Shown here one piece after another: positions 43,391 through 64,000 of a stretch of DNA of 64,000 nucleotides. This DNA comes from Verpa conica. Lineage: Eukaryota; Ascomycota; Pezizomycetes; Pezizales; Morchellaceae. A program made the translations under genes and the position numbers. The stretch spans positions 496,001-560,000 of the forward strand of contig JAUFSD010000025.1 of NCBI GenBank assembly GCA_033030425.1. The letters run 5' to 3'. The notes under the pieces were generated by a model, which was given only the letters and a program-made list of their open reading frames with translations, had not been told where the DNA came from and did no database searches. The first letter of the stretch is position 1, and every line of letters starts with the position of its first letter.

Positions 43391-44004
43391 TGTTATTTTT
43401 CGAGATTCTCAGTCTGTCTTTCCTTGTTTGTATAACATTTTATCTCCATTTGCTACATTTCATTACGACGGCAGAACTGATTGTTTTCTTGATACATTTT
43501 TACATTTATTACATTTTTACATATCTATTAATGTTTATCGAAGGTCGCATACCTTATTGCTTACATGTATTGCGCCATTTGTTATGAGTCATATTTTGTT
43601 GCGCTCATTTATGTTTACTTAACAGACCATTTCGCTTACAAGCACTGTATTACTCATTTCTTTTGGTTACCTTTACCTCGTTACGGTTTTCAGGGTCAAA
43701 CGGCGTTCCCACCTTGGTTTTCACATAGTTATCTCGGTTGGAGGATAAAGGACTTTTCTGTATAAATAGCGGGCCGTTCTCCCTCTTTCTGGGACAGTAA
43801 TTCTCTAGACATAGACACCAATTCACTACGCTATCTTGTTTGGTATTACATGCTCAGACTTCTCGCTTGCCTGTTCTTTATAGTAATAGTTTATTCTGTT
43901 GCTACTACCAATTCACTGGCTTTACGCTTCTTTCTTTGTATCGTACCTGTAGTGTTATACCATTAGGACTTGCATCCTAAGCTGTTACTCCGCTATTCTT
44001 CACA
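43391..44004 (+). mobile_element. Solo LTR, family L2, copy c (614 bp, TSD CTGCC)
   Basis: TGTTATTTTTCGAGATTCT ... CTATTCTTCACA with CTGC(C) on both sides (43386-43390 and 44005-44009). The paralogous leader of unit 1 keeps the empty site (GAGTCTCTGCCCTACTCTGC near 46455), which proves the insertion boundaries independently. Confidence 0.9.
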
Positions 44005-44349: not shown

Positions 44350-44844
44350 ATGACTTCTAGTTCCTATCTTGCAAAAGTTCTCCATTTGATTGAGAGTGGT
44401 GCTTTCACCCGTCAAAGTCTTCCTTATCCTATGCCTAGAAGAAGTTCTTTAGAGGCAAAAGTGGAGAATATTTGGAGAGATTGAATGGCTACAAGACAGA
44501 ACCAAGTTGTGGCTATATCACCTATTACCTATCTTAAACTATATGACAGATTTCATGGAGGAGAGACAGGACTGCTAGCATCTATTGCAGAGCATGAAGG
44601 TGCTATTAGAACCTTCTCCTACTATTCTTCTTCTCTTGAGCCTTTAGAAATTAGAGACTCCGAGGGAGTTGTGTTAGGATATAGGTTTAAGATAGAGCCA
44701 GCTCTTCTTAATACATTGAGGGAATCAGATATCTTACTGCCTGATAGAACTCCCAGGAGAAGAGGTGGTGGAGGAGATCCTGAAGCTCGTGGAGTTTTTG
44801 ATACAAGACATTATGCAATTTGGGCAGATTATATGCATAACTAG
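44350..44844 (+). pseudogene. 2OG-Fe(II) oxygenase gene fragment (third unit)
   Basis: About 90 percent identical to the first 160 codons of the oxygenase at 46809. Codon 45, a Trp there, is TGA here (44482-44484). The frame is cut off after ADYMH, before the HxD motif, so no catalytic core remains. Confidence 0.85.
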
Positions 44845-45239
44845 ATTTTAATTAATTTTTTGGAGTTTAGATTAAATTTACGTCACCTTATAGTTATCCT
44901 CTACTGAAGATTTTTATCAAACTAGCAATGGGTGGTGGATACTGGGAGCGCTTGGGTGGCTTGGGTGGCTGGTGGTTACCCGGCCTACCCCTTTGTGTTG
45001 ACAGGCGACATCAGCGTACCTCTCCTGCTTGCTACCCCCCCTATTGCTACCGACAAACACCTATCTACTGCCATATCGACTGGATTTTGCTGCTTGTGAG
45101 TACCCCCCCATTTAGACGTCATTTGCATGCTTCGCTGACCTCCATATCGACCCCCATATCGACCCCCCTGCTGGCCTCAATTCTCTGTCTATTTAGACCT
45201 CTTTTCGCCGCCTTTTCTGACGTCTCTCCGACGCCAACT

Positions 45240-45945
45240 GCCCGCCCGCCCGCCCGCCCGCCCGCCTGCTCTGGCAGCAAACCTCTGCCTACCTGGATCT
45301 TGACCAGACATCGACTGCCTGCTTGCTTCGCCCCAGCAGCAACCCCCCCCCTAGGAACGAACCTCTGCCTCTCTGGACCTCGACCAGACATCGACTGCCT
45401 GCTTGCTTCGCCCCAGCAGCAACCCCCCCCTAGGAACGAACCCCTGCAGCAGATACCTCCTCTGGACCTCGACCGGACAGCGACTGCCTGCTTGCCTGCT
45501 TGCCTGCTTGCTCGGACAGCGAACCTCTGACTATCTGGACCTCGACCAGACATCGACTGCGTGCTTGCTTTGCCCCAGCAGCAACCCCCCCTAGGAATGA
45601 ACCCCTCTGGACCTCGATCGGACATCGACTGCGTGCCTGCTTTGCCCCAGCAGCAACCTCCCCCCCTAGGAACGAACCCCCACCTGGACCTCGACCAGAC
45701 AGCGACTCTCGTACCCTGGGAGAGAACCTCTGCCTTTCTGGACCTCGACTGCGTGCTTGCTTCGCCCCAGCAGCAACCCCCCCCCCTAGGAACGAACCCC
45801 TGCAGCAGAGACCTCTTCTGGACCTCGACCAGACAGCGACTCTCTGTCTCCCGTGCCCTGGCAGCAAACCTCTGCCTTTCTGGACAGCGACTCCCTTTCT
45901 CACGCGCCCTGGGAGAGAACCTCTGCCTGCAAGCACCCTTTGTAT
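45240..45945. repeat. Minisatellite of about 60-110-bp units
   Basis: Repeated GACCTCGACC(A/G)GACA(G/T)CGACT, CCCAGCAGCAACCCCCC, TAGGAACGAACC and CTCTGCC(T) blocks in variable order, starting with a CCCG tetranucleotide run (45240-45264). The long frames here on both strands are repeat artefacts. A matching array lies at 52690-53170. Confidence 0.85.
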
Positions 45946-46019
45946 CGATTGATATAGAATCCCTGCGCTGACCATACATATATAGACAGTAATTAGACAA
46001 CTGTCCCGCCTTGATCTAC

Positions 46020-46205
46020 AACACGTTCTTCCTCCTGTTCTCGCTCCAGCTCGAGTTCACACTCCGCTCCGCTCCCATTCTCGCTCCTGATCCCACTCCC
46101 GTTTTCGCTCTTGCTCTCGATACCGCTCCCGATCCCACTCCTGTTTCCGCTCTCGATCCCGCTCTCAATCCCGCTCTCAATCCCGCTCTCGCTCCCACTC
46201 CAATT
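46020..46205. repeat. CTCGCTCC-type minisatellite in the unit 1 leader
   Basis: Degenerate copies of CTCGATCCCGCTCTC / CTCGCTCCCACTCC upstream of the oxygenase gene, followed by TTTAGGTTGGTTCCCAGC and, at about 46346, a GTACATGTAC palindrome. This order is shared with the fragment at 42935-43310. Confidence 0.75.
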
Positions 46206-46808
46206 ATCGCTACCGTTCTTTAGGTTGGTTCCCAGCTCTCTTTCGTCAGTTTCTTTATGTGTTCTATTTGCGTGTGTGATATTGGGTTTAGCAACCCACC
46301 CCCGGTTCGCTTCACGGACGCAGCGCTCCTAGGCCGCATCGACTCGTACATGTACAGTTGACAGGGAGTTTCTCTTCTTTCTGTGAAAGAAGAGAGCAGT
46401 GAAGCGTGGCAATTCGGCCTGCAGGTACGGCTTTGACTCTGAGTCTGACTCGAGTCTCTGCCCTACTCTGCACCCTTGCCGTGGGGATAAAGCTTTCTCG
46501 GGAAATAAAGGTCCGCTCCTCCGGAGTTGAAATACGGCACCGCTGTGACTTGCTCACGCAACGCCCTCCTGGTAGAGATTATAAACACCCGTCTTGTTCG
46601 ATCTGTAGACGTGATTACACCGTATACCCTCCTGCTAGAGGTTTTAAAAGCCCACGTATGATGGAATCATGCATCTGCTACCTGCTACTTGCTACCTGCT
46701 ACCTGCTACTTGCTGCCTGCTGCCTGCTATCTGCTACCTGCTCTTTACTTAACCTTTTACTTTCTTAGCTTTACTTTAAAAAATATAAACTGACGGGAGA
46801 GAAAAGAC

Positions 46809-47966
46809 ATGACTTCTAGTTCCTATCCTGCCAGAGTTCTCCACCTAATTGAGAGTGGTGCTTTCACCCGTCAAAGTCTTCCTTACTCTATGCCTAGGAG
46901 AAGCTCCCTGGAGGCAGAAGTGGAGAAAATCTGGAGAGATTGGATGGCTACGAGACAGAACCAAGTTGTTGCTATATCACCTATTACCTACCTTAAACTC
47001 TATGACAGATTCCATGGGGGGGAAACAGGACTGCTAGCATCTATTGCAGAGCATGAAGGTGCTATTAGAACCTTCTCCTACTATCCTTCTTCTCTTGGAC
47101 CATTGGAGATTAGGGATTCCGAGGGAGTTGTTTTAGGATACAGGTTTAAGATAGAGCCAGCTCTTCTTGATACCTTAAGGGAATCAGATACTTTACTGCC
47201 AGATAGAACTCCTAGGAGAAGAGGTGGTGGAGGGGATCCTGAAGCTCGTGGAGTTTTTGATACTAGACATTATGCAATCTGGGCTGATTACATGCATGTT
47301 ATGAAGGAGACTAAAGAGATGCATCAAGATCAGCCAGCTTCGGGTACTTGGTTGGCTCAGAACATGGGATTGTTTAAAGCTATGTCTCATGAGCTGAGAA
47401 TGAGGGATCCTGAGCAATATGTTAGGCTTACGGGAGCTGTTACTAAACAGATGCTGAAGTACAAGTCCAGATCAGGAGAGGTTTTGAAGCCTGTTGCTGG
47501 TGCGTGGCATGGAGTCTGTATCAATAGGGGACAGACAGGTGATGTTTCAGCTTCTCATCAGGACTGGATGGATCTACCTAGCAGCTATAATGCAGTTGCA
47601 CCGTATGGTGATGGCTTTACAGGTGGGGACTTGATTCTTTGGCAACTAAAAATGAGAGTTCAGGTATCAATTGGTGAAGGCTTTATGTTTATGGGTGCTA
47701 TTATTGCTCATAAGGTGACTGAGATTACTTCTGGAGTCAGGAATAGTATTGACCTGTTTGTGCATAAGAGTACGTTTGATGTTTTGGATAAAGCTAATGC
47801 TAGGGCTGGTATACCAAAACGGGGAAAGAAAGAGAAGAAAAAAAGGAGAGAGAAGGATTTAAAACAGAGTAGGAAGGAGCATCAGGTAGTGAGAAAGGGA
47901 TTGAGGGAAGATAAAAGGGAAAGGCAACAGGGTTCGGATCAGGTCAAAGGAAAATGTCTCGGTTAA
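46809..47966 (+). CDS. Predicted 2-oxoglutarate/Fe(II) dioxygenase, Helitron-associated (copy 1)
   Basis: Intronless, 385 residues. N-terminal half: a region kept in all copies (SGAFTRQSLPYSMPR; GYRFKIEPALL; RGVFDTRHYAIWADY). The C-terminal double-stranded beta-helix follows from about residue 228: VAGAWHGVCINRGQTGDV, SASHQDWMD with H250-x-D252, YGDGFTGGDLILWQL, and IIAHKVTEITSGVRNS with H301 and, ten residues on, R311. This is the iron triad plus 2-oxoglutarate-binding Arg of the superfamily; layout and transposon context recall fungal TET/JBP-like enzymes, but the substrate is unknown. The tail is Lys/Arg-rich, fit for nucleic-acid binding or nuclear import. Convergent with the Rep/helicase gene. 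The ATG is shared with the paralogous fragment at 44350. Confidence 0.8.
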   Translation: MTSSSYPARVLHLIESGAFTRQSLPYSMPRRSSLEAEVEKIWRDWMATRQNQVVAISPITYLKLYDRFHGGETGLLASIAEHEGAIRTFSYYPSSLGPLEIRDSEGVVLGYRFKIEPALLDTLRESDTLLPDRTPRRRGGGGDPEARGVFDTRHYAIWADYMHVMKETKEMHQDQPASGTWLAQNMGLFKAMSHELRMRDPEQYVRLTGAVTKQMLKYKSRSGEVLKPVAGAWHGVCINRGQTGDVSASHQDWMDLPSSYNAVAPYGDGFTGGDLILWQLKMRVQVSIGEGFMFMGAIIAHKVTEITSGVRNSIDLFVHKSTFDVLDKANARAGIPKRGKKEKKKRREKDLKQSRKEHQVVRKGLREDKRERQQGSDQVKGKCLG

Positions 47967-48106
47967 TTACTTTGTATTTCATGTTAGTGTTTTAGGAGAC
48001 TGTACTGGAGAGAAGAGAGAAGTCAAATTGGTGGAAACAAATTGTACGGTGGCAAATAACTATTATATTTTTCTTTATTTTGTACTGAAGCCAGCTACGT
48101 AAAAAT

Positions 48107-48330
48107 ACAGCTGCCATCTCTACTAATACAGCTATCTCCCCGCTAATACAGCTATCTACGCCAATACAGCTATCTACGCCAATACAGCTATCTACGCCAA
48201 TACAGCTATCTACGCCAACACAGCTATCTACGCCAATACAGCTATTTCCGCCTATACAGCTATTTCCGCCTATACAGCTATTTCCGCCTATACAGCTATT
48301 TCCGCCTATACAGCTAACTCCGCCCAAACA
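48107..48330. repeat. 15-16-bp tandem repeat between convergent genes
   Basis: About 14 units of TACAGCTATTTCCGCC and variants (TACAGCTATCTACGCCAA). Beyond 48330 it degrades into a CAGCTAC-rich tract to about 48480. The frame at 47992-48327 is an artefact. Confidence 0.85.
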
Positions 48331-48526
48331 GCTACCTTCATCAACACAGCTACTTCTACGCCAACACAGCTACAACCGCCAACAAAGCTACTACTGCTAA
48401 TACAAAAATCTCTGTTAGCACAGCTACAATGCCTACTATAGCTGCTGCCACTATTACAGCTACCACCGTTACTACTACTGTTACCTTCACTACTATTGCC
48501 ACATTAAGAGATGATGGATTTAACAG

Positions 48527-51500
48527 TTATATAGCTATCAATGCTTCAAGACGCTTATACTCTTGAATAGCTTCTTGATCAGCTTTGATAGCTAGAGGGT
48601 CAAATGAGCTAATAGCTATATCTTTCCATCGTTTAGCTCTACTTATTGCTGTATAGGCTTGACCAACGCTGAAGACTGTAGCATCTAATGTCAAGCAGAT
48701 TCTATTCAATGACAAGCCCTGAGTTTTATGGATAGTGAGTGCAAAAGCATTCTGAATTGGTAGCTGAGTACGTGAATATGCAATGCCGTTGTGGTGGAAA
48801 TACACAGTGTGCAGCTGTATTTCTACCATCTATATTTCAATGCGTATTAGTAAGTAATTCTATCAAGCTTTATTACTAATACAAATTAATTTGAAGTACT
48901 TACACGTATGCCTTCTATGGTAGGAAATGCTACTGTTGGCAACCCATTATCTCTCAACTCTATGATAACACCACAAGTGCCATTTGATATTCCCAAAGCC
49001 ATCATTATGTTATTAAGAAACATGACTTTAGCACCTGGTTCACAAACCACTTCAGCAGGATAGTTAGTACCCATTTTGAATGTGCGAGAGTTCTGACTTC
49101 CTTCTAGTTGTCTCCCTTCTTCACGGTCTATTGCATATTGTATATGTTTTCGATTGTCCGGTAAAGAGTCAAGCAAAAGACTGTTGATGCTTGTGGCTGT
49201 TTGGCGGAGAGATACTAAGTGGGTTGTAAGATAGGTTTGATCCCGTGTTTGAAAGCTTTGAATTTTTTGATTGATAAGTTGTTGGCTATGAGGGCTAATA
49301 TAACCAAAACGGAGGTCATTTAGCATCTGAAAAAACTCCAAGTCTTCATTCTGACGTATAGAGTTTTTCAGGAACAGAGGGCTAAAGAGTTTCCAAAGAT
49401 TGGAGTGAAAGACTTTTAAGCCGGTAACTGGTGGAAGCTGCAAGAGATCTCCTAGACAGATGACATGGATATTGCCAAAAGGTCTAATATTGTTGTGAAG
49501 ACGGGCAAATAAAGAGGATACAAACTCAAAAAGGTCTGTGTTTACCATTGAAATCTCATCAATAACTATAACTCTGACTTTTTGCAAAATCAGAGTCTTT
49601 TCGGGTGACTGAAATACACTTGACTTAAAGCCACCTCCGTCAGAACCACCTATATGTAGTGCAGAATGGATTGTTTGGCCATTGATATTATTTGCAGCAA
49701 TACCTGTGGGTGCAAGAAGGAGATATGGAAGGTGTTGACTTGTAAACCATTGTTGAAGGGCACGCAACAAGTATGATTTCCCTGTACCAGCAGGACCAGT
49801 GATAAAAAGCTTAACACTTGGGCTTGTAGGGCGGGTTCCAGTAATAGCTTGAGTTATTTTGCTGTAGGCTTGATACTGTTCAGGCTGGAGATCAAAAACA
49901 ATAGCTTGGTTGAGGGCGGGAGGAGGTAGATGTTGCAACTCTAGGAGTTGGTTATTGATAATGGCTTTAACTGACTGGCTTGTTGTTGCTGTTATAGTAT
50001 CGATAAGTTCCAAATAGATATCTGATAGGTGAAGACGTGTGAGTTGAATTTCTTGCTTGTACGTTGAAAGGAGTTGGTGATAAAGTCTGGGGTGCCTGGC
50101 TAACAGATGTTCTTTATAGGAACTGTATTGCCCATGGCCTGCAATCTCATCATCTGATCTCCAAGAATCAAGTTCGAGAAGCTTGTAGAAGAAAAAAGAT
50201 TCACCATCTGCAAGTCTTCGGTAGGCAGTTCTGATTAATATAAGCTATGAGAGTATTAGTATTGAACCAGTAATGAGCAGGTACAGGAAAGAATAACCTT
50301 TTGACGGGCATAGACAAAGCTGCCAGTATTATCTTTCCAGAATTTAGTTTTGCTTCTACGTTGATGACGTTCTATTTTATACTGGGAATGATATTTGAAG
50401 TAGGTTAATGATTCGAAGGGGTAGCCAAAGGGTCTTGCAAAGTACTTGTCAATGGCATCTGGGTAGTAAGGTGAGTCTCCGTCTTCTTCTTGTTCTAATA
50501 GCCAAGCAGGTTTGACTACAGAGATGCGTTCTGTTGGAGTAGACGTTGGAAGATAAATGCAACCACTTGACATTTGAAATATAGGAAAGCTAAGAAGTAG
50601 GACCATGCATTCCATGGAACCCATTCTACGTGACAGTAAATGAGATAATGTATGATCGTTGCTCTGGATATTGACAAGGGATTTAGGTTCAGCTTTGGTG
50701 ACGTATTTTGAAATATACTTTGCCAAACCACCTGAAGTGCAGTATTGTACGTTGCAATGAGCTTGCCAGAGCAGTAGGAGCTGGGGTGAATAAGGAACAA
50801 CATAACGGTCTGCTTCTGTCAACCTCCGGTAGGTATATCTGATCTCTCCGTGCTTTTGATAGGTTACTAATGAAAGTTCTGCAGGAAAGCCTTTACGGCA
50901 AGGACCAGTCATTGTATCATCTCTACCACAAAGCCTGATATCACAACGGTGAATCTGGTGATCAAGTACTAGCTGATATAGCTCAGGCTCCAGTACAGTA
51001 TCAGGGATATCAGCACGGATAAAATTGATTTCAATCAACTCTTGTTGAGTCTTCTCCGTCCATAAAAGTGAGTGAGTATGGATTGCACCTCTTAACTGGA
51101 ATTCATGACGTTCCACCAACTCCCGCAACTGACCAAAGCCAGAAACCTTATGCTCTCTAAAGTATGCTGTCTTTACCCAATGCCATCTTTCATAATAGTA
51201 CTGAACAGCATCCCATGGGCGGTTTGAAGGAAGAGTATCATGATTACCTGACTGGAGTAGAATCTGCTGATATTGAGACCAGCGTTCTGAGAAGGTTGTG
51301 GTAACAAATAGAGTAGGGATTCCAAATGTTTGAAGCATGCAGCGGACCTTTGCTTCTGCTCCAATAAAGAAAGAATCACCAGTACGTATAAACTTGGGAA
51401 CAGTTGTTGTCAATTCTTCATTGACTATTGACCATGGACCATACTGACTTGGTTGTAGGAGTTGAGTTATGGTATATCTCTGATCAGCTGAGCGCTGGGC

Positions 51501-52275
51501 TTGACCTTTAGTCAGACGGATATTATTTTGAAAGATACGGGAGGCTTCAATCTCCATATATGTCCATGCTGACCAATAGTGATCATCACGGAAGTGAGAA
51601 ATCACTGAGTTAAGCTTCAGCTTTGCATCTGCAAGGCGGGTGTTGTGGTAAGGTGTTCTGTCTTCCTTTGCTGGTAGAGTCCACTGACCGTAGCCCCAAG
51701 GATACAATACTGGAAACAATAGAGGTTCTATTGCAGGATCTGAGCGGGATAGTCCAATAGGACTACTAGGAGATGACTGATTTGGAAGAGAGCCAACAGG
51801 TAAGCGGAAGTTACGGTGGTCTTCATTTGTTGTATCTGGTGGGTAATTGAAAGAATTTAGGATAATATCTGGACGGTTCAATGGTCTTGATTCTTCTTGA
51901 CTACTTAAAGTGGAAAGGGATGCTGTTGGTAGAGAATGCAGTTGAAGTTCAGTTCTGACATCATAACGGAGAAATAGTGGATTGTGCTGGAGAAGCCAGC
52001 TGCGGCAAAGCTCCAGCTGGTGAGTATCATGTCCTCCGTCAAATACATTTCTAGAGCTCTCTAGAAAAGCTCCAATACAGCCACTAAAAAGTGCAATAGC
52101 ACGAGGATTTTTAGACAAGCTCATTTTGCCTGCAATATACTATTAGTGAGGTTTACAGAAGGATAGTAAGTAAAAGAATTACCTGTTACTGTTCTGTAGG
52201 TTGAATATGGGTTTATATGCTCCGAATGACTGACGGTTCTTCCTAAGTTTGTTTGTAGAGAAATTGGACTAAGAA
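48527..52275 (-). pseudogene. Helitron Rep/Pif1-helicase gene, unit 1 (first exon truncated)
   Basis: Exons 52183-52275 (remnant), 50298-52124 (running to the acceptor at about 52129), 48904-50244 and 48527-48829; phases agree and all three main exons are open (about 1156 residues from the internal Met). Rep domain: HUH motif in RGAIHTHSLLW (about residue 350 of the second exon) and the two-Tyr motif KYISKYVTKAE. Helicase: Walker A GPAGTGKSYLL, Walker B VIVIDEISMV, GDLLQLPPV, and a C-terminal ALTIHKTQGLSLNR...VGQAYTAISRAK. These nick and unwind DNA in rolling-circle transposition. The first coding exon, complete in unit 2, is cut at 52275 by the start of unit 2, so a full-length protein cannot be made. 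Confidence 0.85.
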
Positions 52276-52559
52276 CTAGCAATGGGTGGTGGATACTGGG
52301 AGCGCTTGGGTGGCTTGGGTGGCTTGGGTGGCTGGTGGTTACCCGGCTTACCCCTTTGTGTTGACTGGCGACGTCAGCGTACCTCTCCTGCTTGCTACCC
52401 CCCTATTGCTACCGACAAACACCTATCTACTGCCATATCGACTGGTTTTTGCTGCTTGTGAGTACCCCCCCATTTAGACGTCATTTGCATGCTTCGCTGA
52501 CCTCCATATCGACCCCCATATCGACCCCCATATCGACCTCCCTGCTGGCCTCGATTCCC

Positions 52560-53170
52560 TGTCTATTTAGACCTCTTTTCGCCACCTATTAGGACCTCTA
52601 TTCGCCCCCTATTAGGACCTCTATTCGCTGTCTATTGGGACCTCTTTTCGCCGCCTATTGGGACCTCCATTCGCCGCCTTTTCTGACGTCTCTCCGAGAC
52701 CGACTGACTGCCTGGACCTCGACCAGACAGCGACTCTCTGTCCCCCGTACCCTGGCTGCGAACCTCTGCTTTTCTGGACCTCGACCGGACAGGGACTGCC
52801 TGCTTGCCTGCTTGCCTGCTTTCGGACAGCGAACCTCTAACCACCTGGACCTCGATCGGACAGCAACTCTCTGTCTCTCGTGCCCTAGGAGCGAACTTCT
52901 GCCCACCTGGACCTCGACTGCGCGCCTGCTTTGCCCAGCAGCAACCCCCCCCCCTAGGAACGAACCTCTGCCTACCTGGACCTCGACCAGACCTCGACTG
53001 CGCGCCTGCTTCGCCCAGCAGCAACCCCCCCCCTAGGAGCAAACCTCTGCCTACCTGGACCTCGACCGGACCTCGACTGCGCGCCTGCTTCGCCCAACAG
53101 CAACCCCCCCCCCTAGGAACGAACCCCTGCAGCAGAGACCTCCTCTGGACCTCGACCGGACAGCGACTGC
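52560..53170. repeat. Minisatellites in the unit 2 leader, part 1
   Basis: 52560-52685 is a 22-bp-type repeat, CCTATT(A/G)GGACCTC(T/C)ATTCGCC. 52690-53170 repeats the GACCTCGACC.GACA.CGACT / CAGCAGCAACCCCCC blocks also seen at 45260-45945. All long frames across it are artefacts. Confidence 0.85.
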
Positions 53171-53299
53171 CTGTCTCCCGCGCGCTGACAGCAAACTTCT
53201 GCTTATTAGAGACTGACTCTTGTCTGCAAGCACTCCATATTGCCCATATATCGTTCCTGCGCTGACAATATACAGACAACAAATTGACGGTGTCTCTAT

Positions 53300-53565
53300 C
53301 TTGATCCTGTTCTTGACCCGTTCCCGTTCTCGACCTGTTCCCGTTCTCGTTCTCGACCTGTTCCCGTACTCGATCCAGTTCCCGTTCTCAATCCGGTTCC
53401 CGACCTGTTCCCGATCCTGTTCCCGACCTGTTCCCGTTCTCGACCTGTTCCCGTTCTCGACCTGTTCCCGTTCTCGACCTGTTCCCGTTCTCAATCTAGT
53501 TCCCGTTCTCAATCCGGTTCCCGACCCGTTCTCGATCCTGTTTCCGCCAGTTCACATTCTCGACC
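53300..53565. repeat. CTGTTCCCGTTCTCGA minisatellite
   Basis: About 15 units of 15-16 bp, (CTCGACCTGTTCCCGTT)n with variants, occupying the same leader position as the CTCGCTCC arrays of the other oxygenase copies but with a diverged unit. Confidence 0.85.
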
Positions 53566-53624
53566 TCTTTTCACAAGCAATATAAGGTTAGTTTTTCCCG
53601 TTAGTTCTTTATGTGCGTTTTCAA

Positions 53625-53820
53625 CAGTGCGAGTGCGAGTGTGGGTGCGGATTTGGGTGTGGGTGTGGGTGCGGGTGCGGGTGCGGGTGCGGGTGTGGGT
53701 GCGGGTGCGAGTGTGGGTGCGGGTGCGGGTGCGAATGCGAGTGCGGGTGCGGGTGCGGGTGCGAATGCGAGTGCGGGTGCGGGTGCGGGTGCGAATGCGA
53801 GTGCGGGTGCGAATGCGGGG
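53625..53820. repeat. GCGGGTGCGGGT microsatellite-like array
   Basis: Roughly 33 hexamers of GCGGGT/GCGAGT/GTGGGT. The G-rich strand runs with four-per-turn G clusters, so it could form quadruplex-like structures; that is inference. It explains the odd Cys/Gly, Val/Arg and Ala/Gly frames at this place. Confidence 0.9.
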
Positions 53821-54206
53821 GTGAGGACTCTGGTCCATACGTTCACTTTACATAAAACGGTAAACTCCATAGACCGCTTTCGGCTGTACATGTACAGTTG
53901 ATTGGGAGTTTAACGGTAAAGTGTGGCATTTCGGTTGGGAGGATACGGCTTTTTTAGCCCTATTCTGCAGCTCACGGGAGTTGTGCCGGAACGCCTAGGT
54001 GGAGGGCTTGCCACACGTTCTTCCCAGCGAGGGGGGGGGCTCGAGGGAGTTATACCGATCCCCTAGGTGGAGGGTTGCCACACATTCTTCCCAGCGAGGG
54101 GGGGAAACTCGCGGGAGTTATACCAATCTCCTATATGGAGGGCTACCATATATTAACCTGACCAACTATTAGTGAAAGAGAAAGGCTAACGGGAAATCCT
54201 TTAGAT

Positions 54207-55526
54207 ATGAATTCTACTCCTGGTTCACCTAGTTCTCTCAGTTCTCTTACCTCTCTTGGTTCTCCTACTCCTCCCGGTTCACCTATTCCTCCTGGTTCAC
54301 CTATTCCTCCCGGTTCACCTTACAGTTCACCCACTCTTCCTGATTCCTCTACTGTACCAGATAGCTTCTACTACAACGGTAGAGAGAACTCCAATAGGGT
54401 TAAGCATTATATTGATACTGGAGCTTTTACCAGACAGAGTCTTCCATATCCTATGCCTAGAGGAAGTTCTCTAGAAACTGAGGTTGAGAAAATTTTTGTT
54501 GCGTGGCAGGAGACTAGAAAGGATAAAACTGTTTTACGGTCTCCTATTTCTTATAATCTCTTGCTGGAGAGATCTAAAGGAGAACCAGGACTTATGCCAG
54601 AGATTGCTGAGTATGAGAAAGCTATCAAAAGCTTTACTTGGTGTCCTTCGAGCTTGGGAACCTTAGAGATTAAAGATAAAAGAGGGCATCTTTTGGGATA
54701 TCGGTTCAAAATTCCTCAGAATCTTTTAGAGACTTTGAAGGAATCTGATTCCATGTTGCCTGTGAAGGCAGCTAGGAAGCAAGGAGGTGGAGGACAAGTT
54801 GAGGCACGAGGAGTTTATGACAATAGGCATTATGCTGTTTGGGCAGACTATAGCAAGAGGATTAGACAGAGTAAAGAGATGGAGAAAGATGAGCCAGCTG
54901 CTGGGAATTGGGTTGCTACGAATAATGATTTATTCAAAGCTATGACTCACGAACTGAGGATGATTGCTCCAGATCAGTATGTGAGGCTTACTGGCAATAT
55001 TGGTAAGTTTATGAAGAGGTTTACTAATAAAGCTGGTGAGCCTTTGAAGCCAGTTGCAGGAGCGTGGCATGGTGTTTGTATTAATAGGGGGCAGACTGGT
55101 GATGTGTCTTCTAGCCATCAAGATTGGATGGATCTGCCTAGTTCCTACAATGCAGTTGCACCGTATGGAGATGGCTTTACTGGAGGGGACTTGATTTTAT
55201 GGCAGTTGAAGATGAGAATTCAGTTGTCTATTGGGGAGGGATTTATGTTTATGGGAAGTATAATTGCTCATAAAGTGACTGATATTACAGGAGGCGTGAG
55301 AAACAGTATTGACTTGTTTGCTCACAAGAGTACTTTTGCTGTTCTGGATAGGTATAATGAGAGAAATGGAAGAGGGAGATATGGGAAAAAGGCGGGAGAG
55401 CTTAGAATGGAAAAAGGAAGGAAGGAAAAGAAAAAAAAGAATAGGTTAGGGAGAATGGGACAGAGAGATGAGAAAAGAGAAAGGCAAAGTGCGTTGGGAT
55501 TGATTAAAGGGAAGTGTGAGGGTTAG
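54207..55526 (+). CDS. Predicted 2-oxoglutarate/Fe(II) dioxygenase, Helitron-associated (copy 2)
   Basis: Intronless, 439 residues; diverged from copy 1 but collinear. It has an extra N-terminal Pro/Ser/Gly repeat (GSPIPPGSP type) of about 55 residues. The core reads VAGAWHGVCINRGQTGDV, SSSHQDWMD (H304, D306), YGDGFTGGDLILWQLKMR and IIAHKVTDITGGVRNS (H355, R365), so the iron and 2-oxoglutarate residues are kept. The tail is Lys-rich. The order of conservation, strongest around the active site, suggests selection on activity. The leader has the GTACATGTACAGTTGA palindrome block (about 53886) as in copy 1. Its 3' end faces the Rep/helicase 3' end across a 17-bp minisatellite. Confidence 0.8.
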   Translation: MNSTPGSPSSLSSLTSLGSPTPPGSPIPPGSPIPPGSPYSSPTLPDSSTVPDSFYYNGRENSNRVKHYIDTGAFTRQSLPYPMPRGSSLETEVEKIFVAWQETRKDKTVLRSPISYNLLLERSKGEPGLMPEIAEYEKAIKSFTWCPSSLGTLEIKDKRGHLLGYRFKIPQNLLETLKESDSMLPVKAARKQGGGGQVEARGVYDNRHYAVWADYSKRIRQSKEMEKDEPAAGNWVATNNDLFKAMTHELRMIAPDQYVRLTGNIGKFMKRFTNKAGEPLKPVAGAWHGVCINRGQTGDVSSSHQDWMDLPSSYNAVAPYGDGFTGGDLILWQLKMRIQLSIGEGFMFMGSIIAHKVTDITGGVRNSIDLFAHKSTFAVLDRYNERNGRGRYGKKAGELRMEKGRKEKKKKNRLGRMGQRDEKRERQSALGLIKGKCEG

Positions 55527-55749
55527 TTTTGTTTGCTTTATATTTTTTGTTTTCTTTCTCTACTATGTAACAATTGCAATTGCAATTTTTTGCACGATAC
55601 TATTATTGGTATAAGTACTTTTGCTATGACTATTATTACAACTACGAGAACAATACCAGCATGAGAAACACGAACACTACTACTACAAACTCTAGTATTG
55701 CTACTACTACAGCTACCGGAGTCATAAAGCTAACACAGCAACTGTATTA

Positions 55750-56180
55750 ATGGAGCAGCTATACTATCAGATTCATGATGCTACCAGATCTACCGTACTA
55801 CCAAACTCACTATACTACCACCATTCAACCAAACCACCAAGCTACCAGCTCTACAACGCTACCAGATCCACAACGTTGTCAGATCCGCAAAACTACCAGA
55901 TTCACAACGCTCCCAGATTCACAACGCTACCAGATTCACAACGCTACCAGATTCACAACGCTACCAGATTCACAACGCTACCAGATTCACAACGTTACCA
56001 GACTTCCCACTTCTATCACTCAATTGGAGTTACTAAGCTGCCGGAGCCACCACGCTGCCAGAGCCACCACGCTGCCAGAGCCACCACGCTGCCAGAGCCA
56101 CCACGCTGCCAGAGCCACCACGCTGCCAGAGCCACCACGCTGCCAGAGCCACCACGCTGCCAGAGCCACCACTATTCTAC
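55750..56180. repeat. 17-bp minisatellites between convergent genes
   Basis: Two successive arrays with 17-bp units: CAACGCTACCAGATTCA (about 55865-56000) and CCAGAGCCACCACGCTG (about 56040-56170). Because 17 is not a multiple of three, all frames stay open and give 17-residue protein repeats; these are artefacts. Confidence 0.88.
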
Positions 56181-56240
56181 CGCCACTATTAGTTTCATTT
56201 TCACTATAATAGCTATATCAATACATGATAGATTTAATAC

Positions 56241-59200
56241 TTAAATAAGTGTTAAAGATTCAAGACGTTTATACTCTTCAATAGCTTCTTGGTCAGCTTT
56301 AATAGCTATAGGATCGAATGAGCTAATAGCTATATCCCTCCACCGTCTGGCTCTACTTATTGCCGTATAGGCTTGACCAACACTAAAGATTGTGGCATCT
56401 AATGTCAAGCAGATTCTATTCAATGACAAGCCTTGCGTTTTATGGATAGTAAGTGCAAAAGCATTTTGAATTGGTAGCTGGGTGCGTGAATATGCAATGC
56501 CGTTGTGGTGGAAATATACGGTGTGCAGCTGTATTTCTACCATCTATATTTCAGTGCGTATTAATAAGTAAGTCTATCAAGCTTTAATACTTATATAAAT
56601 TGATTTGAAGTACTTACACGTATGCCTTCTATAGTAGGGAATGCTACTGTTGGCAACCCATTATCTCTCAGCTCTACGATAACACCACAAGTGCCATTTG
56701 ATATTCCCAAAGCCATCATCATGTTATTGAGAAACATGACTTTAGCACCTGGTACACAAACCACTTCAGCAGGATAGTTAGTACCCATTTTGAATGTGCG
56801 AGAGTTCTGACTTCCTTCTAGCTGACTTTCTTCTTCACGGTCTATTGCATATTGTATATGTTTTTGACTGTCCGGTAAAGAGTCAAGCAAAAGACTATTA
56901 ATACTTGTAGCTGTTTGGCGGAGAGATACTAAGTGGGTAGTAAGATAGGTTTGATCTCGTGTTTGAAAGGTTTGGATCTTTTGATTGATAAGTTGTTGGC
57001 TATGAGGGCTAATATAACCAAAGCGGAGATCATTTAGGAGCTGAAAAAAGTCCAAGTCTTCATTCTGACGGATAGAGGTTTTCAGAAACAGAGGGCTAAA
57101 GAGTTTCCAGAGACTGGAGTGAAAGACCTTTAAGCCGGTAACTGGTGGAAGCTGCAAGAGATCTCCTAGACAGATAACGTGGATATTGCCAAAAGGTCTA
57201 ATATTGTTGTGAAGACGGGCAAATAAAGAGGATACAAATTCAAAAAGGTCTGTGTTTACCATTGAAATCTCATCAATCACTATAACTCTAACTTTTTGCA
57301 ATGACTGAGTTCTTTCAGGTGACTGAAATACACTTGTCTTGAAGCCATCACCGTCAGACCCACCAATATGCAATGCAGAATGAATTGTTTGACCATTAAT
57401 ATTGTTTGCAGCAATACCGGTAGGTGCAAGAAGAAGATATGAGAGGTGTTGACTTGTGAACCATTGTTGAAGGGCACGCAACAGGTATGATTTCCCTGTA
57501 CCAGCAGGGCCAGTGATAAAAAGCTTAACACTTGGGCTTGTAGAGCGGGTTCCAGTAATAGCTTGGGTTATTTTGCTGTAGGCTTGGTACTGTTCAGGCT
57601 GGAGATCAAAAACAATAGCTTGATTGAGGGCGGGAGGAGGTAGATGTTGCAACTCTAGGAGTTGTTTATCAATAATAGCTTTAACTGACTGGCTTATTGT
57701 TGCTGTTATAGTATCGACAAGTTCCAAATAGATATCTGATAGGTGAAGGCGGGTGAGTTGAACTTCTTGCTTGTATGTTGAAAGGAGTTGGTGATAAAGT
57801 CTAGGGTGCCTAGCTAATAAATGCTCTTTATAGGAACTGTATTGCTCGTGGCCTACAACCTCATCATCTGATCTCCAAGAATCAAGCTCGAGAAGCTTGC
57901 AGAAGAAAAAAGATTCACCATCTGCAAGTCTTCGGTAGGCAGTTCTGATTAATATTGGCTATGAGAGTATTAGTATTGCATCAGTAATGAACAGGTAGAG
58001 AAAAGAATAACCTTTTGACGGGCATAGACAAAGCTGCCAGTATTATCTTTCCAGAATTTAGTTTTGCTTCTACGTTGATGACGTTCTATCTTATACTGGG
58101 AATGATATTTGAAGTAGGTTAATGATTCGAAAGGGTAGCAAGAAGGTCTTGCAAAGTACTTATCAATAGCATCTGGATAATAAGGTGAGTCCCCATCCTC
58201 TTCTTGTTCTAGTAGCCAAGCAGGTTTGACTACTGAGATGCGTTCTGTTGGAGTAGAAGTTGGAAGGTAGATGCAACCGCTTGACATTTGAAAAATAGGG
58301 AAGCTAAGGAGTAAAACCATACATTCCATAGAGCCCATTCTACGGGATAGTAAATGAGACAATGTATGATCATTGCTCTGAATATTGACCAGAGATTTAG
58401 GTTCAGCTTTGGTGACGTATTTTGAAATATACTTTGCCAAACCACCTGAAGTGCAGTATTGTATGTTGCAATGAGCTTGCCAGAGTAGTAGGAGCTGGGG
58501 TGAATAAGGAACAACATAACGGTCTGCTTCTGTCAACCTGCGGTAGGTATATCTGATCTCTCCATGCTTTTGATAGGTTACTGATGAAATTTCTGCAGGA
58601 AAGCCTTTACGGCAAGGACCTGTCATTGTATTATCTCTACCACAAAGCCTGATGTCACAACGGTGAATCTGGTGATCGAGTACTAGCTGATATAGTTCAG
58701 GTTCCATTACAGCATCAGGGATATCAGCACGGATAAAGTTGAGTTCAATCAACTCCTGTTGAGTCTTCTCCGTCCATAAAAGTGAGTGAGTATGGATTAT
58801 GACCTCTTAACTGGAATTCATGGCGCTCCACCAACTCCCGCAACTGACCAAAACCAGAAACCTTATGCTCTCTAAAGTATGCTGTCTTTACCCAGTGCCA
58901 TCTTTCATAATAGTACTGAACAGCATCCCATGGACGGTTTGACGGAAGTGTATCGTGATTACCTGACTGGAGTAGAATCTGTTGATATTGAGACCAGCGT
59001 TCTGAGAAGGTTGTGGTAACAAAAAGAGTAGGGATTCCAAAGGTTTGAAGCATGCAGCGAACCTTTGCTTCTGCTCCAATGAAAAAAGAATCACCAGTAC
59101 GTATAAACTTGGGAACAGTTGTTGTCAATTCTTCGTTGACTATTGACCATGGACCATACTGACTTGGTTGTAGGAGTTGACTTATGGTATATCTCCGATC

Positions 59201-60591
59201 AGCTGAGCGTTGGGCTTGACCTTTAGTCAGACGGATATTATTTTGAAAGATACGGGAGGCTTCAATCTCCATATATGTCCAGGCTGGCCAATAGTGATCA
59301 TCACGGAAGTGAGAAACTATTGAGTTAAGCTTCAGCTTTGCATCAGCAAGACGGGTGTTGTGGTAAGGTGTTCTGTCTTCCTTTGCTGGTAGAGTCCACT
59401 GACCATGGCCCCAAGGATACAATACTGGAAACAATAGAGGTTCTATTGCAGGATCTGAGCGGGATAGTCCAATAGGACTACTAGGAGATGACTGATTTGG
59501 AAGAGAGCCAACAGGTAAGCGAAAGTTGCGGTGGTCTTCATTTGTTGTATCTGGTGGGTAATTGAAAGGATTTAGGACAATATCTGGACGGTTCAATGGT
59601 CTTGATTCTTCTTGACTACTTAGAATGGAAAGGGATGCGGTTGGTAGAGAATGCAGTTGAAGTTCAGTTCTGACATCATAACGGAGAAATAGTGGATTGT
59701 GCTGGAGAAGCCAGCTGCGGCAAAGCTCCAGCTGGTGAGTATCATGTCCTCCGTCAAATACATTTCTAGAGCTCTCTAGAAAAGCTCCAATACAGCCACT
59801 AAAAAGTGCAATAGCACGAGGATTTTTAGACAAGCTCATTTTGCCTGCAATAAACTATTAGTGAGGTTTACAGAAGGATAGTAAGTAAAAGAATTACCTG
59901 TTACTGTTCTGTAGGTTGAATATGGGTTTATATGCTCCGAATGACTGACAGTTCTTCCTAAGTTTGTTTGTAGAGAAATTGGACTAAGAAAGACACGAGA
60001 CCGTTGAGCCAATACTAATAATACTTCAGGCCATGGACCAGCTGATAGAGGTTCTTTAGGCTTAATCTTGCAATGAATACAAACAGCAATCTGAATACTG
60101 TCACCTTTTAACCTCTCCGTAGTAGGAACACCAAACACTTCAGTCAATGGGTATGGTTGACTGGCATTCTTAGTGATCCAGTGTATATGACGTGGAAGCA
60201 GTAGGATTGAACAGAAAGAGCATGGTGTACTGGGGAAAGCTTTATCGTATGTTGATCTAAAAAGTTGAAGAACTTTTTTAAAAGCTAGGCTAGGAGAATA
60301 TACAGTATTCTGAGGAGCTGATTGAGGTGGAATAGAAGACGGTAAAGAGAGATGATTTACTTCTGCTGGAGCTAACTGTGATGAGTTTGGTTGGACTATT
60401 CCTCGGGAGCTTTGATTGTTATGCTGAATAAAGGAATAGGTGGTGAATAAAGCTCTGGTGTCTTCAGTTTCAATATTAGAAGTAACTGAAATAAGATGAT
60501 GGTTTTGTATGTTGCCGTTTGCACTGGATCTGTCTCTGTTTATAAGATTTGCATCTGACTGTGGAATATAGGAACGGAATCGATAAGACAT
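56241..60591 (-). pseudogene. Helitron Rep/Pif1-helicase gene, unit 2 (frameshift at HUH motif)
   Basis: Exons 59898-60591 (start at the ATG of MSYRFRSYIPQSD), 58012-59844, 56618-57958 and 56241-56543, close to 1390 codons. The first exon holds a Cys-containing segment (CSFCSILLLPRHIHWI; IAVCIHCKIKP) absent from unit 1. Exon 2 is one base longer than in unit 1: near 58795 the codons for the HUH motif are altered and shifted, so the frame ends soon after. Downstream, KYISKYVTKAE, GPAGTGKSYLL, VIVIDEISMV and the C-terminal SF1 motifs are intact. The helicase exons differ from unit 1 by few substitutions, so the duplication is young compared with the two oxygenases. Confidence 0.85.
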
Positions 60592-60713
60592 TATAAACCC
60601 TGAATACCATAAAAAATTCCCCTGATTAGCTATCAAAGAATACCAATAATTTCCACCGGAAAGTAAAAAGAAACCCCAAAATATAAAACTAAATACAATT
60701 TCTGTCCCTATCT

Positions 60714-61774
60714 TCAAGCTTTGCCCTTTCCTTTTGCCTTCTTCGTATTATGATACTTTTTTTTTGAAGTAGAGTCTACTAATCCCAACTCATCTTCATC
60801 ATCCTCAGAAGTCTCCAACATATCAATCTCTTCAAACCCATGATCGTTGCTACCAGAAGTCTCTGTAGCTGGTATAATGAGGCTGTTGGCAGGAGTAGAT
60901 GGTGTTTGTATGCCACCACTATCTCCGTCAGAATTGGAAACTGATTGTTTCTTCTCTATAGATTGTATATATACGTTAATTATTGCTTTAAATAATTCAG
61001 AGAGCTGGATAATCTTACGGAAGCTGCTGAACAGATTTCTGCTAGACTTTATACTGTTCGGAGAAGAAAAGGGTGAGGTCACACTACTATCAGGATCTGG
61101 TTTGATAGTTTTGATTGGGCTGGTAGATGCTGTAAGTGGACCCAGCAGTACTTTGCGTTTTGATTTGGGAGTTTGAAATATAGAAGCCTTGTCTTCTTTA
61201 GGAACCAAATCCTGTGAGAAGCTGATGGCCAAAGAAAAACCATAAGCTGTATTCACCATATAAAGTATTAGTACTGATGGGTATCAACTTAGAGGGTTTA
61301 CATACCACGATCAATATCAGTTTCATAGATATACTTGAAAGCTATATCTAATGTTTTTCCCGACTGCAGATAGGTGACTAATTTGGCAAATAATGGAACT
61401 TTGGTATCTATGAGAAAGGTAACCGTACACTATACTAGTTAGTATTTCCTTTATTTTACTTAACTCTGGCTTATACTTACAACAACATCCTCTCTAGCCT
61501 CACTATTATACTGATACATCTGGCCTTGAAAGTGGGAGAGACTTGTATCGGGCATTTTGACCAAATCAGAGAGCATAGTAACAGTGGAGGTGCAGTAGGC
61601 ATCGTTGGCAATAGATTTATCAATAGAAGTATTATGAAAGAGCTCAGTATTACGGATGAGTGAATACTAAATAGGTATTAACTTCAAAAGCAATTTAAAG
61701 AGAAATAGAAAGCTGGATTTGTATGTGCTTACCACGGGAGTCTTTCCAGCAGTGAAAATAACTGTTCCATTGAA
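60714..61774 (-). CDS. Helitron accessory gene, unknown (possible ssDNA-binding/OB-like)
   Basis: Lies just upstream of the Rep gene on the same strand. Exons 61733-61774, 61481-61666, 61306-61429 and 60714-61246 join in phase, with TACTAATAC-type branch sites. Readable segments: FNGTVIFTAGKTPV, LIRNTELFHNTSIDKS, TVTMLSDLVKMPDTSLSHFQ, TVTFLIDTKVPLFAKLVTYL, DRAYGFSLAISFSQ. The last 130 residues are low-complexity, with an acidic stretch (EEIDMLETSEDDEDELG) and a Lys-rich end. Position, beta-rich head and charged tail would suit a single-strand-DNA-binding helper, as RPA-like proteins do in some plant Helitrons; this is inference, no motif proves it. The first exon and start codon are unresolved, perhaps near 61830-61900. 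Confidence 0.5.
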
Positions 61775-62107
61775 CTATAGAATAGGGAGTATAGCTGATA
61801 AATGTAGTTTTAAAATGAATTTAGAGTCTACCGTTGATAAAGAGTATTAGAAGTTTGTAAGTTAGGCTTCTATTCTGATTGTATTGTTTGCTCTTAGTAT
61901 GTATATATTGAATCAACTGTATAAAAAGTAATTGTACCAATATATATAGCAATGCAATAGGTATACCTACTATATAATAGTACGTAACATAGACACAACA
62001 CACTAAAATTGATTGTGAACCTAAAGAGGAAATAAACTACAAATGGAGCATAGTCTGTGTTTCACAGTACCCACTCATCCACCCACACGATTTTTATTAG
62101 GTTTAAC

Positions 62108-62194
62108 TACTTCAGTAGCCTAATGGTTAGATTGTTGCTTTTGGCCGAACATCATCTTTCTCATAAAGTTACAGGTTCAATTCCTGTTGCACGC
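62108..62194 (+). other. tRNA-like relic (A and B box present, acceptor stem lost)
   Basis: TAGCCTAATGGTTAGA fits a pol III A box, and ACAGG-TTCAATT-CCTGT is a perfect T arm with B box GGTTCAATTCC. The anticodon loop would be TTTTGGC (anticodon TTG). The 5' ACTTCAG cannot pair with the 3' TGCACGC, so this is a pseudo-tRNA or the head of a tRNA-derived SINE rather than a working tRNA. Confidence 0.4.
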
Positions 62195-62272
62195 ATGGAT
62201 GTAGATCACGTCCACTAAAGTCTAGTGGCTAAGCTGCATACAGGCTTGGGCGCTGGTTTATAATCTGAAAGA

Positions 62273-62887: not shown

Positions 62888-63121
62888 AAAGATTCCAGTA
62901 TAATATAAATCTTTAAACACACAAGAAAAATAAAATTCATGTGTGTACTACTAACAGTGAGGAGATTTTGCAAAAAAAATAATCTGCTTACTAATATATT
63001 ACTAAGCGCCAAGCCTTAGTAGTGGTGGCCAAATTTACCCCGCCCAGTTCCCCCCACAATATATATACCTCTTTCTTTCCCCTTCTTCTTCCCTCTATTC
63101 CTTACTTCTTCCATCAACGCC

Positions 63122-63729
63122 ATGGATTCACCATCCTCTTCTTCCAATTCTGTTGCCTCTAATAGCCAATCTGCTATTCCTACTACTTCTCGGCACTTTG
63201 ATACAGCCAATCGCCAACTTGATTACCTACGTAAACAAGGCGTATACAACAACTCCTATCATACCTTTACCCGTGGTCCCAGACATGGTATTAAACGTAT
63301 TCTGCACCGCTGGACTGAGACTCAACAAAACCTCCAAACCACCATCTCCAAAATCAATTATACCGACCTCAAAAACCTTAGTAAAACCAAAAGACTGCCA
63401 GCACACTATTAGAGTAGATTGGAAGAGTTTCAAAGAATCCCTACCGCTTCCAATCATCACCAAATCTTAAACCACAATCACAATATCCTGGCTTATAGAT
63501 TTCGTGTCCCTCCTAATCTAATCACCGTACTCTCCCAGAGTCAATCTCTTCTTCCTCAGTCAACTACAACTGCCACTATTCGTGGAAACTTTAACCATCG
63601 CCATTACGCTCTCTGGGCTGATTACAGCAAAAATATTTTCTACAGCTCTGAATACAAGCGGAATCTCTCTCACTTCCAGCAATTCCTTGACACCAATCAA
63701 GATCTATTTAGATATCTATCTAATTATTA
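63122..63729 (+). pseudogene. Diverged 2OG oxygenase paralogue, N-terminal part only
   Basis: From the ATG of MDSPSSSSNSV the frame runs to a TAG at 63410-63412 and continues in the same frame to 63729. Despite low identity it aligns with the N-terminal half of copy 2: AYRFRVPPNLITVLSQSQSL against GYRFKIPQNLLETLKESDSM, and RGNFNHRHYALWADYSKN against RGVYDNRHYAVWADYSKR. It is cut at about 63729 by L1-related sequence before the catalytic core. A TATA-like ATATATATA lies near 63060. Confidence 0.78.
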
Positions 63730-64000
63730 CAGGCACCTGATAAGAAGAGTAGTTCTGGGAACCCTGAAGACCACTTGTTTGACTGTCTAGGTAATTTGAT
63801 CTCTTGTTTGTTTCTTGACGGGGCAGGGGTTTGGGGAGAAGCGCATATGAATATTATTGCTGGTGGCTATCTCCTGTGGGGCGCCCCACTGTGCCACCCA
63901 CCGGGTGCTGGGGGGGCCCCCTAGAGTTTCTGTGAATGCATAGTAAAAACACAAGCTTTGGACCCCAAAAATAACCGCTGGAGCGTCAGGAAGATTCGTC
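63730..64000. repeat. L1-related element, 5' part, running off the window
   Basis: Matches 39615-39890 (GGCACC-GATAAGA, GAAGACCACTTGTTTGACT, GGGCGCCCCACTGTGCCACC, AAGCTTTGGACCCC). Inserted into the diverged oxygenase relic; the far end and target duplication lie outside the window. Confidence 0.65.

Follow-up and report, generated by a model that had tools for sequence, protein, structure and literature searches.

A 64,000-nucleotide stretch of the Verpa conica genome (contig JAUFSD010000025.1, positions 496,001 to 560,000, indexed here as G000:C25:496001-560000 and called the window below) contains two adjoining copies of a Helitron family that carries its own TET/JBP-like 2-oxoglutarate (2OG)-Fe(II) dioxygenase gene. 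Two long-separated versions of this gene exist, types A and B, and elements that otherwise resemble one another appear to have exchanged them. Two old TET lineages sit on elements whose termini and Rep/helicase genes are far more similar, and TET and Rep segments were reassorted in at least one event in addition to a single split. As a whole, we consider it probable that the family encodes its own TET/JBP-like enzyme, would use it to oxidise 5-methylcytosine (5mC) against silencing, and exchanges the two gene types by recombination.

Organization of the two Helitron units

The window was compared with 12 further A or B units on other contigs (14 units in all) in a searched genome of 45.8 Mb and 25 contigs. 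The principal features are as follows, in window positions.

44920-52273, minus strand (that of the Rep gene): Helitron unit 1, TET type A, Rep/helicase clade I, delimited by its left terminus and by homology to copies elsewhere
44920-45169, minus strand: unit 1 left terminus (3' end on the Rep strand, ...GCTAG-TT), 92.5-100% identical among 12 copies
46809-47966, plus strand: TET/JBP-like dioxygenase type A, 385 aa, uninterrupted open reading frame (ORF), with H250, D252, H301 and R311 placed by alignment to type B
48125-48404: 18-bp minisatellite array of unit 1
48886-50013, minus strand: PIF1-type helicase exon of unit 1 (PF05970, 106 bits, cut-off 25.9)
50256-52124, minus strand: Rep (HUH) exon of unit 1 (PF14214, Helitron_like_N, 48.4 bits, cut-off 28.9)
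52274-62106, minus strand: Helitron unit 2, TET type B, Rep/helicase clade I, both termini present
54207-55526, plus strand: TET/JBP-like dioxygenase type B, 439 aa, uninterrupted ORF, with H304, D306, H355 and R365
55841-56172, no strand: 17-bp minisatellites of unit 2 between TET-B and helicase, about where the A/B difference ends on the right
56591-57727, minus strand: PIF1-type helicase exon of unit 2 (PF05970, 112 bits, cut-off 25.9)
57970-59839, minus strand: Rep exon of unit 2, split over two overlapping frames (58745-59839 and 57970-58752)
61776-62106, minus strand: unit 2 right terminus (5' end on the Rep strand, TTAAACC...)

Gene order is convergent in both units, with TET on the plus strand and helicase and Rep on the minus strand. 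An earlier note on this DNA had described exactly this arrangement, and it is borne out by the uninterrupted dioxygenase frames and by PF14214 and PF05970 scores above cut-off. Its two tandem units also stand, with the outer limits of 44922-61830 corrected to 44920-52273 and 52274-62106. In the unit 1 Rep exon, an HUH-like motif runs downwards from about 51080 and a Y2-like motif from about 50717. In unit 1 the right (Rep 5') end is missing, and the unit adjoins unit 2 directly; the rest of its right part was not found beyond unit 2 within the window. The start of unit 2 falls at an AA of unit 1, and about 650 bp that are present in other copies are missing from unit 2 at 61775/61776. GC-rich minisatellite arms, variable in length among copies, extend from the left terminus to the TET gene at 45137-46742 and 52499-54144.

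Reassortment of TET types among Rep lineages

TET-A and TET-B genes share 65-67.5% DNA identity, with synonymous divergence (dS) of 1.4-2.4, whereas the elements that carry them share 92.5-100% identity in the left terminus and 95.5-98.6% in the right part. Two clades that are 88-89.5% alike can be told apart in the Rep/helicase segment (HelRep), and both TET types occur in each. Clade I comprises A_W1, A_C20a, B_W2, B_C22 and B_C23, and clade II comprises A_C1b, A_C20b, A_C4, A_C1a and a single B unit, B_C15. The TET and HelRep trees cover 10 of the 14 units (the two in the window among them, the other 12 having been fetched); outside them stand A_C22, B_C10 and B_C19, with no HelRep in the stretch, and B_C7, with a partial one. 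The unit 0 relic described below is in no tree, and the short protein P0022 was left out of the protein trees.

On the HelRep tree two changes of TET type are needed, forced by the starred branches. The approximately unbiased (AU) test rejects type A as one clade on the HelRep data (p 7e-6) and HelRep clade I on the TET data (p 1.3e-4). Between the HelRep clades, dS reaches 0.41-0.48 in Rep and 0.36-0.48 in the helicase but 0.17-0.30 in TET-A and 0.27 in TET-B; the TET lineages therefore crossed after the Rep lineages had split. The order of the A/B split and the split from P0001, a TET protein of another source, was examined as well: P0001 grouped with type A at support of only 67/49, and the AU test rejected neither a pairing of P0001 with B (p 0.15) nor one of A with B (p 0.43).

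Where the A/B difference ends on the right, beside minisatellites, A and B units pass within some 180 bp from an identity of about 0.5 to one of about 0.9; on the left, the edge falls somewhere within the minisatellite arm. Copies residing in one genome would have recombined, and the minisatellites that flank TET on either side are the likely edges of the exchange. The picture is not so simple, however. B_W2 and B_C15 also differ from each other in the right-edge region, which thus varies within type B, and minisatellite turnover blurs the edge. The data are compatible with either direction of exchange and with more than one exchange.

The data fit movement of either segment, the TET or the Rep side. 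A possible alternative, towards which we lean less than halfway, is that Rep/helicase and termini were repeatedly replaced by gene conversion among two old Helitron families, each keeping its own TET. Across clades, similarity is higher in the right-hand region than in HelRep, as such replacement would have it, and B_C15 differs from the clade II A copies by unequal helicase and Rep distances (dS 0.17-0.20 versus 0.04-0.08), so that several segments recombine and recombination is not confined to TET. Such replacement is, however, reassortment viewed from the other side, and the termini, which a transposase would be expected to recognise, follow the Rep side.

Termini, target site and Helitron class

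The left terminus (AACTAGCAATGGGTGG...) was found at 12 places and the right terminus (...ATTTTTATTAGGTTTAA) at nine, with flanks unlike one another in the six copies examined. The element, read along the Rep strand, is TTAAACC...GCTAGTT, and the full-length copy A_C20a measures 10.2 kb. Empty sites, in which the flanking repeat lacks the element, were recovered six times for A_C1a and three times for B_C15, and all nine are AA; filled sites read AACTAG...GGTTTAA, so that a 2-bp duplication is indistinguishable from element-borne A's. Shared termini and precise empty sites therefore place the dioxygenase gene inside the mobile unit.

HUH Rep, PIF1-type helicase, precise termini and the lack of a long target duplication assign the element to the Helitron superfamily, and its Rep matches that of the bat Helitron Helraiser (7lcc) by sequence at E 1.1e-15. 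To our knowledge, Helraiser carries no dioxygenase. The family is nevertheless non-canonical: the target was AA/TT in the three insertions tested (A_C1a, B_C15 and unit 2) rather than the A-T insertion of canonical Helitron1. As far as passages of the sources go, AA/TT is the target of Helentrons and AT that of canonical Helitrons (PMC5148889, PMC4067079). With Helitron2/Helentron elements as described there, the family shares the TT target, the absence of a visible 5'-TC end and possibly a short subterminal inverted repeat, here a 19-column inverted match that one of 300 shuffles equalled. It differs from them in its 3' CTAG, as in canonical Helitrons, and in that no endonuclease domain turned up in the frames scanned with Pfam. 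Its Rep motif, RGAIHTH, departs from both the GSP and the GLP signature given in passages of PMC4067079. As to a terminal hairpin, one of 5 bp can be drawn near the right end, but neither terminus folds better than shuffles (z -0.36 to 0.70).

The dioxygenase and its predicted fold

Type A and type B proteins are 64% identical, and identity is concentrated around the active site (37/40 and 35/40 in the active-site blocks, 14/40 in the tail, 19/39 in the N-terminal block). The conservation peak reported in the earlier note is thus confirmed, as is its HxD...H-x9-R signature, which reads HQD in both window proteins. Among 28 aligned proteins D306 and H355 are invariant and Q305 and R365 occur in at least 90%; the first metal-ligand histidine is replaced by arginine in P0014, P0019 and P0020.

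The AlphaFold2 model of type B (pLDDT 78.9, pTM 0.72) matched CcTet, NgTET1, TET2 and CMD1 ahead of other 2OG enzymes among the matches listed, CcTet being the best at about 10% identity. A profile of the 28 homologues searched against the PDB (E up to 10) returned 12 sequences with NgTET first (0.003 and 0.004), and the distal histidine and arginine of NgTET align with those of the profile; ten cytolysins at E 0.05-1.2 were taken as chance. AlkB/FTO and prolyl-hydroxylase folds were rejected as best fit because structure matches put TET/JBP nearer. The comparison with TET/JBP, AlkB and prolyl-hydroxylase folds that the earlier note had called for thus returns, on the model, a 2OG-type fold nearest TET/JBP.

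Pfam speaks less clearly for this assignment. Tet_JBP scores lie below cut-off (13.0 and 11.6 bits against 34.9; E 0.06 for type A, 0.16 for type B), which is why we use the label 'TET/JBP-like', and unrelated families score as well or better (AAA_lid_9, E 0.06, in type A; DLL_N, E 0.016, in type B), matches that were taken as chance. We regard the oxygenase as a 2OG-Fe(II)-type enzyme with a predicted TET-type fold and HxD...H-x9-R in place. Given this nearest predicted fold, DNA is the favoured substrate.

Homologues with species names come from Tuber borchii and T. aestivum; a widened profile search for the family gave 24 proteins, none of them new among the best 7995 candidates scored. The Verpa genome has other TET/JBP-like genes, with presumed active-site motifs HYD (L038 and L040, on C16 and C5), HRD (L032, L034 and L037, on C4, C11 and C11) and HKD (L035, on C23). 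L033, L036 and L039 belong to more distant TET types and share the HQDW motif of the window proteins.

Copy number, association with Rep and selection

At least 39 TET matches in the genome were grouped by hand into 28 loci, 15 of which (the 14 units and the unit 0 relic) were viewed with their surroundings. The earlier note had set against its own reading an oxygenase family made up mostly of single-copy host genes away from Rep. In the one genome tested this did not occur: 21/28 loci have a Rep match no more than 12 kb away, compared with about 0.3 expected under random placement, and of 32 Rep matches 28 are equally close to a TET. By type, the proportion is 11/11 for A, 6/9 for B and 4/8 for distant types, part of the last figure coming from neighbouring A or B units.

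Nine of 13 extracted TET genes are open to a single terminal stop (A 6/7, B 3/6). The ratio of nonsynonymous to synonymous divergence (dN/dS) is 0.04-0.13 between diverged A copies and 0.09 for B_W2 versus B_C15, while close pairs scatter up to 0.58; these values cover 10 of the 13 genes, A_C4, B_C22 and B_C10 being left out for frame breaks or stops. The TET gene thus lies between shared termini, is carried with the element into AA (TT) targets and is conserved by selection. It is an integral, selected part of the Helitron, as the earlier note held, although its term 'stable partner' proves too simple: TET is usually present, but its type is reassorted among Rep lineages.

The remaining four of the 13 genes are broken, which counts against a maintained function. 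The oxygenase could accordingly be pictured as a captured passenger, amplified by hitch-hiking and with no role for the Helitron. Helitrons are described as capturing genes (in passages of PMC4289320), B_C19 is interrupted by a long terminal repeat (LTR) element, and 3/9 B and 4/8 distant loci have no Rep within 12 kb, the C7 copy among them adjoining helicase sequence all the same. Low dN/dS between diverged copies, the preponderance of open genes and the presence of a related TET beside a Rep only 63% identical (C23) make this quite improbable. That pair, a distant-type TET at C23:805132, again with HQDW, and the Rep at C23:807890, represents a sister Helitron family.

Host methylation and the proposed role

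Three host C5-methyltransferase matches lie above cut-off (L009, L010 and L011). The nearest named relatives of L009 are Pezizales methyltransferases, from Morchella and Maublancomyces (76-78% identity over one third of the query), other proteins matching its whole length at up to 63% identity. L011 matches 7r76 (E 1.6e-52), which is listed as Rad8 and which we take to be a fungal Dnmt5; L010 would presumably be called DIM-2-like. Single-exon pieces of L010 and L011 gave no match when scanned against Pfam.

The enzyme would oxidise 5mC, most likely at CpG on element DNA; this would loosen methylation-based silencing and allow Rep/helicase expression, so that transposition proceeds. The mutational record of the element provides the main counterweight. 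CpG observed/expected is 0.20-0.31 in TET copies (13/13) and 0.43-0.46 in the two HelRep segments of the window, compared with 0.69 for the window, 0.73-0.78 for three host loci of 3-4 kb and 0.98 for the LTR. Such depletion is as expected of DNA long methylated at CpG, and codon use may contribute; unless codon use explains it, the element has not escaped CpG decay, which speaks against complete protection, even if the enzyme may shield the element or its single-stranded intermediate as the earlier note suggested. In HelRep, TET-B and R5, and likewise in the 614-bp LTR control, CpG is where singleton C-to-T changes are most frequent; in TET-A, CpC equals CpG (2/22 sites only). The ratio of 2.3 in the LTR control, compared with 1.3-3.5 in Helitron segments, shows no protection from CpG decay; the LTR serving as control is itself free of CpG depletion. 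Repeat-induced point mutation was considered as the main force; the CpA C-to-T excess is 1.9-fold in HelRep and 0.8-1.0 in TET-A, TET-B, R5 and LTR. A substrate on the element itself is plausible, but the record shows no escape, and the likeliest role of the dioxygenase would be temporary or partial relief from silencing.

A TET-type fold could also serve another main substrate or product, such as N6-methyladenine, thymine, a CMD1-like transfer or the single-stranded DNA of the rolling-circle intermediate. We think this unlikely; speaking against it, though indirectly, 5mC oxidases are among the closest matches of the predicted structure, the host has C5-methyltransferases and the element is CpG-depleted as if methylated.

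Relation to known systems

The pairing of Helitron and TET is already published: passages of Kojima 2025 (PMC12730594) report Helitrons with TET/JBP genes from five species of Pezizales and propose an anti-silencing function. The family described here agrees with those elements, as far as these passages describe them, in a TET/JBP-like gene inside a Pezizomycetes Helitron, in the proposed role, and in a weak sequence but clear structural link to CMD1, NgTET and CcTet. The same passages give HxE as the hallmark of the PE type and assign the Pezizales elements to Helitron1. Here, the motif is HQD in the window proteins, with D in 28/28 aligned, and the target is AA/TT; we therefore file neither the enzyme as PE type nor the element as Helitron1. 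Fungal TETs linked with transposons also include CcTet, the best structural match, and the AG-type TET of Kyakuja and Zisupton (KDZ), again in passages of PMC12730594. KDZ elements are, however, another transposon class with a DDE transposase; identity is about 10%, and the partner gene of TET here is Rep/PIF1 rather than a KDZ-type transposase.

Passive TET transfer between transposon superfamilies is described in passages of Kojima 2025 (PMC12730594). Reassortment of TET types within a family appears neither in those passages nor among the open-licence literature matches listed, which contain no report of TET in Pezizales Helitrons beyond Kojima 2025 and a review citing it.

Other features of the window

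44350-44838, plus strand: TET-A fragment of a third, decayed unit (unit 0)
59836-61259, minus strand: open frames upstream of the unit 2 Rep exon, in a homologous region aligned in nine units
63100-63733 (about), plus strand: relic of a more distant TET type, running on past the window end

The fragmentary third unit and the fourth relic of the earlier note correspond to the first and last of these. A Pfam scan of the frames at 59836-61259 gave nothing above cut-off. A 164-aa ORF at 55750-56244 consists mostly of 17-bp minisatellite and is probably no gene. Within decayed unit 0 sits a 614-bp solo-LTR-like element (TG...CA, 43391-44004) with the 5-bp direct repeat CTGCC; 15 copies longer than 560 bp occur in the window and loci L012-L031, several of them within Helitron units. 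Directly right of unit 2, 62107-62272 is a multi-copy repeat that by eye resembles a tRNA-derived short interspersed nuclear element, and ARAGORN found no tRNA in it.

Implications

Transposon-borne TET enzymes represent a natural counter to silencing by DNA methylation, and passages of a 2026 review describe the TETs of Basidiomycota and Pezizomycetes as yet to be functionally characterized (PMC13297926). This genome offers a good test set: its two TET types sit in elements that closely resemble one another, each type has readable frames, termini are precise, empty sites exist, and three DNA-methyltransferase matches occur in the host. More speculatively, and in our estimate rather doubtfully, TET may act as an exchangeable specificity module, the two old lineages being alternative cassettes in one Helitron family, reassorted and each under purifying selection, that would suit different marks, contexts or silencing states or lower homology-based recognition. 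If true, this would be a polymorphic anti-silencing cassette in a transposon; we know of no other case, and there is none among the open-licence literature matches listed. Reassortment of TET and Rep segments within one Helitron family bears on how such genes move between transposons.

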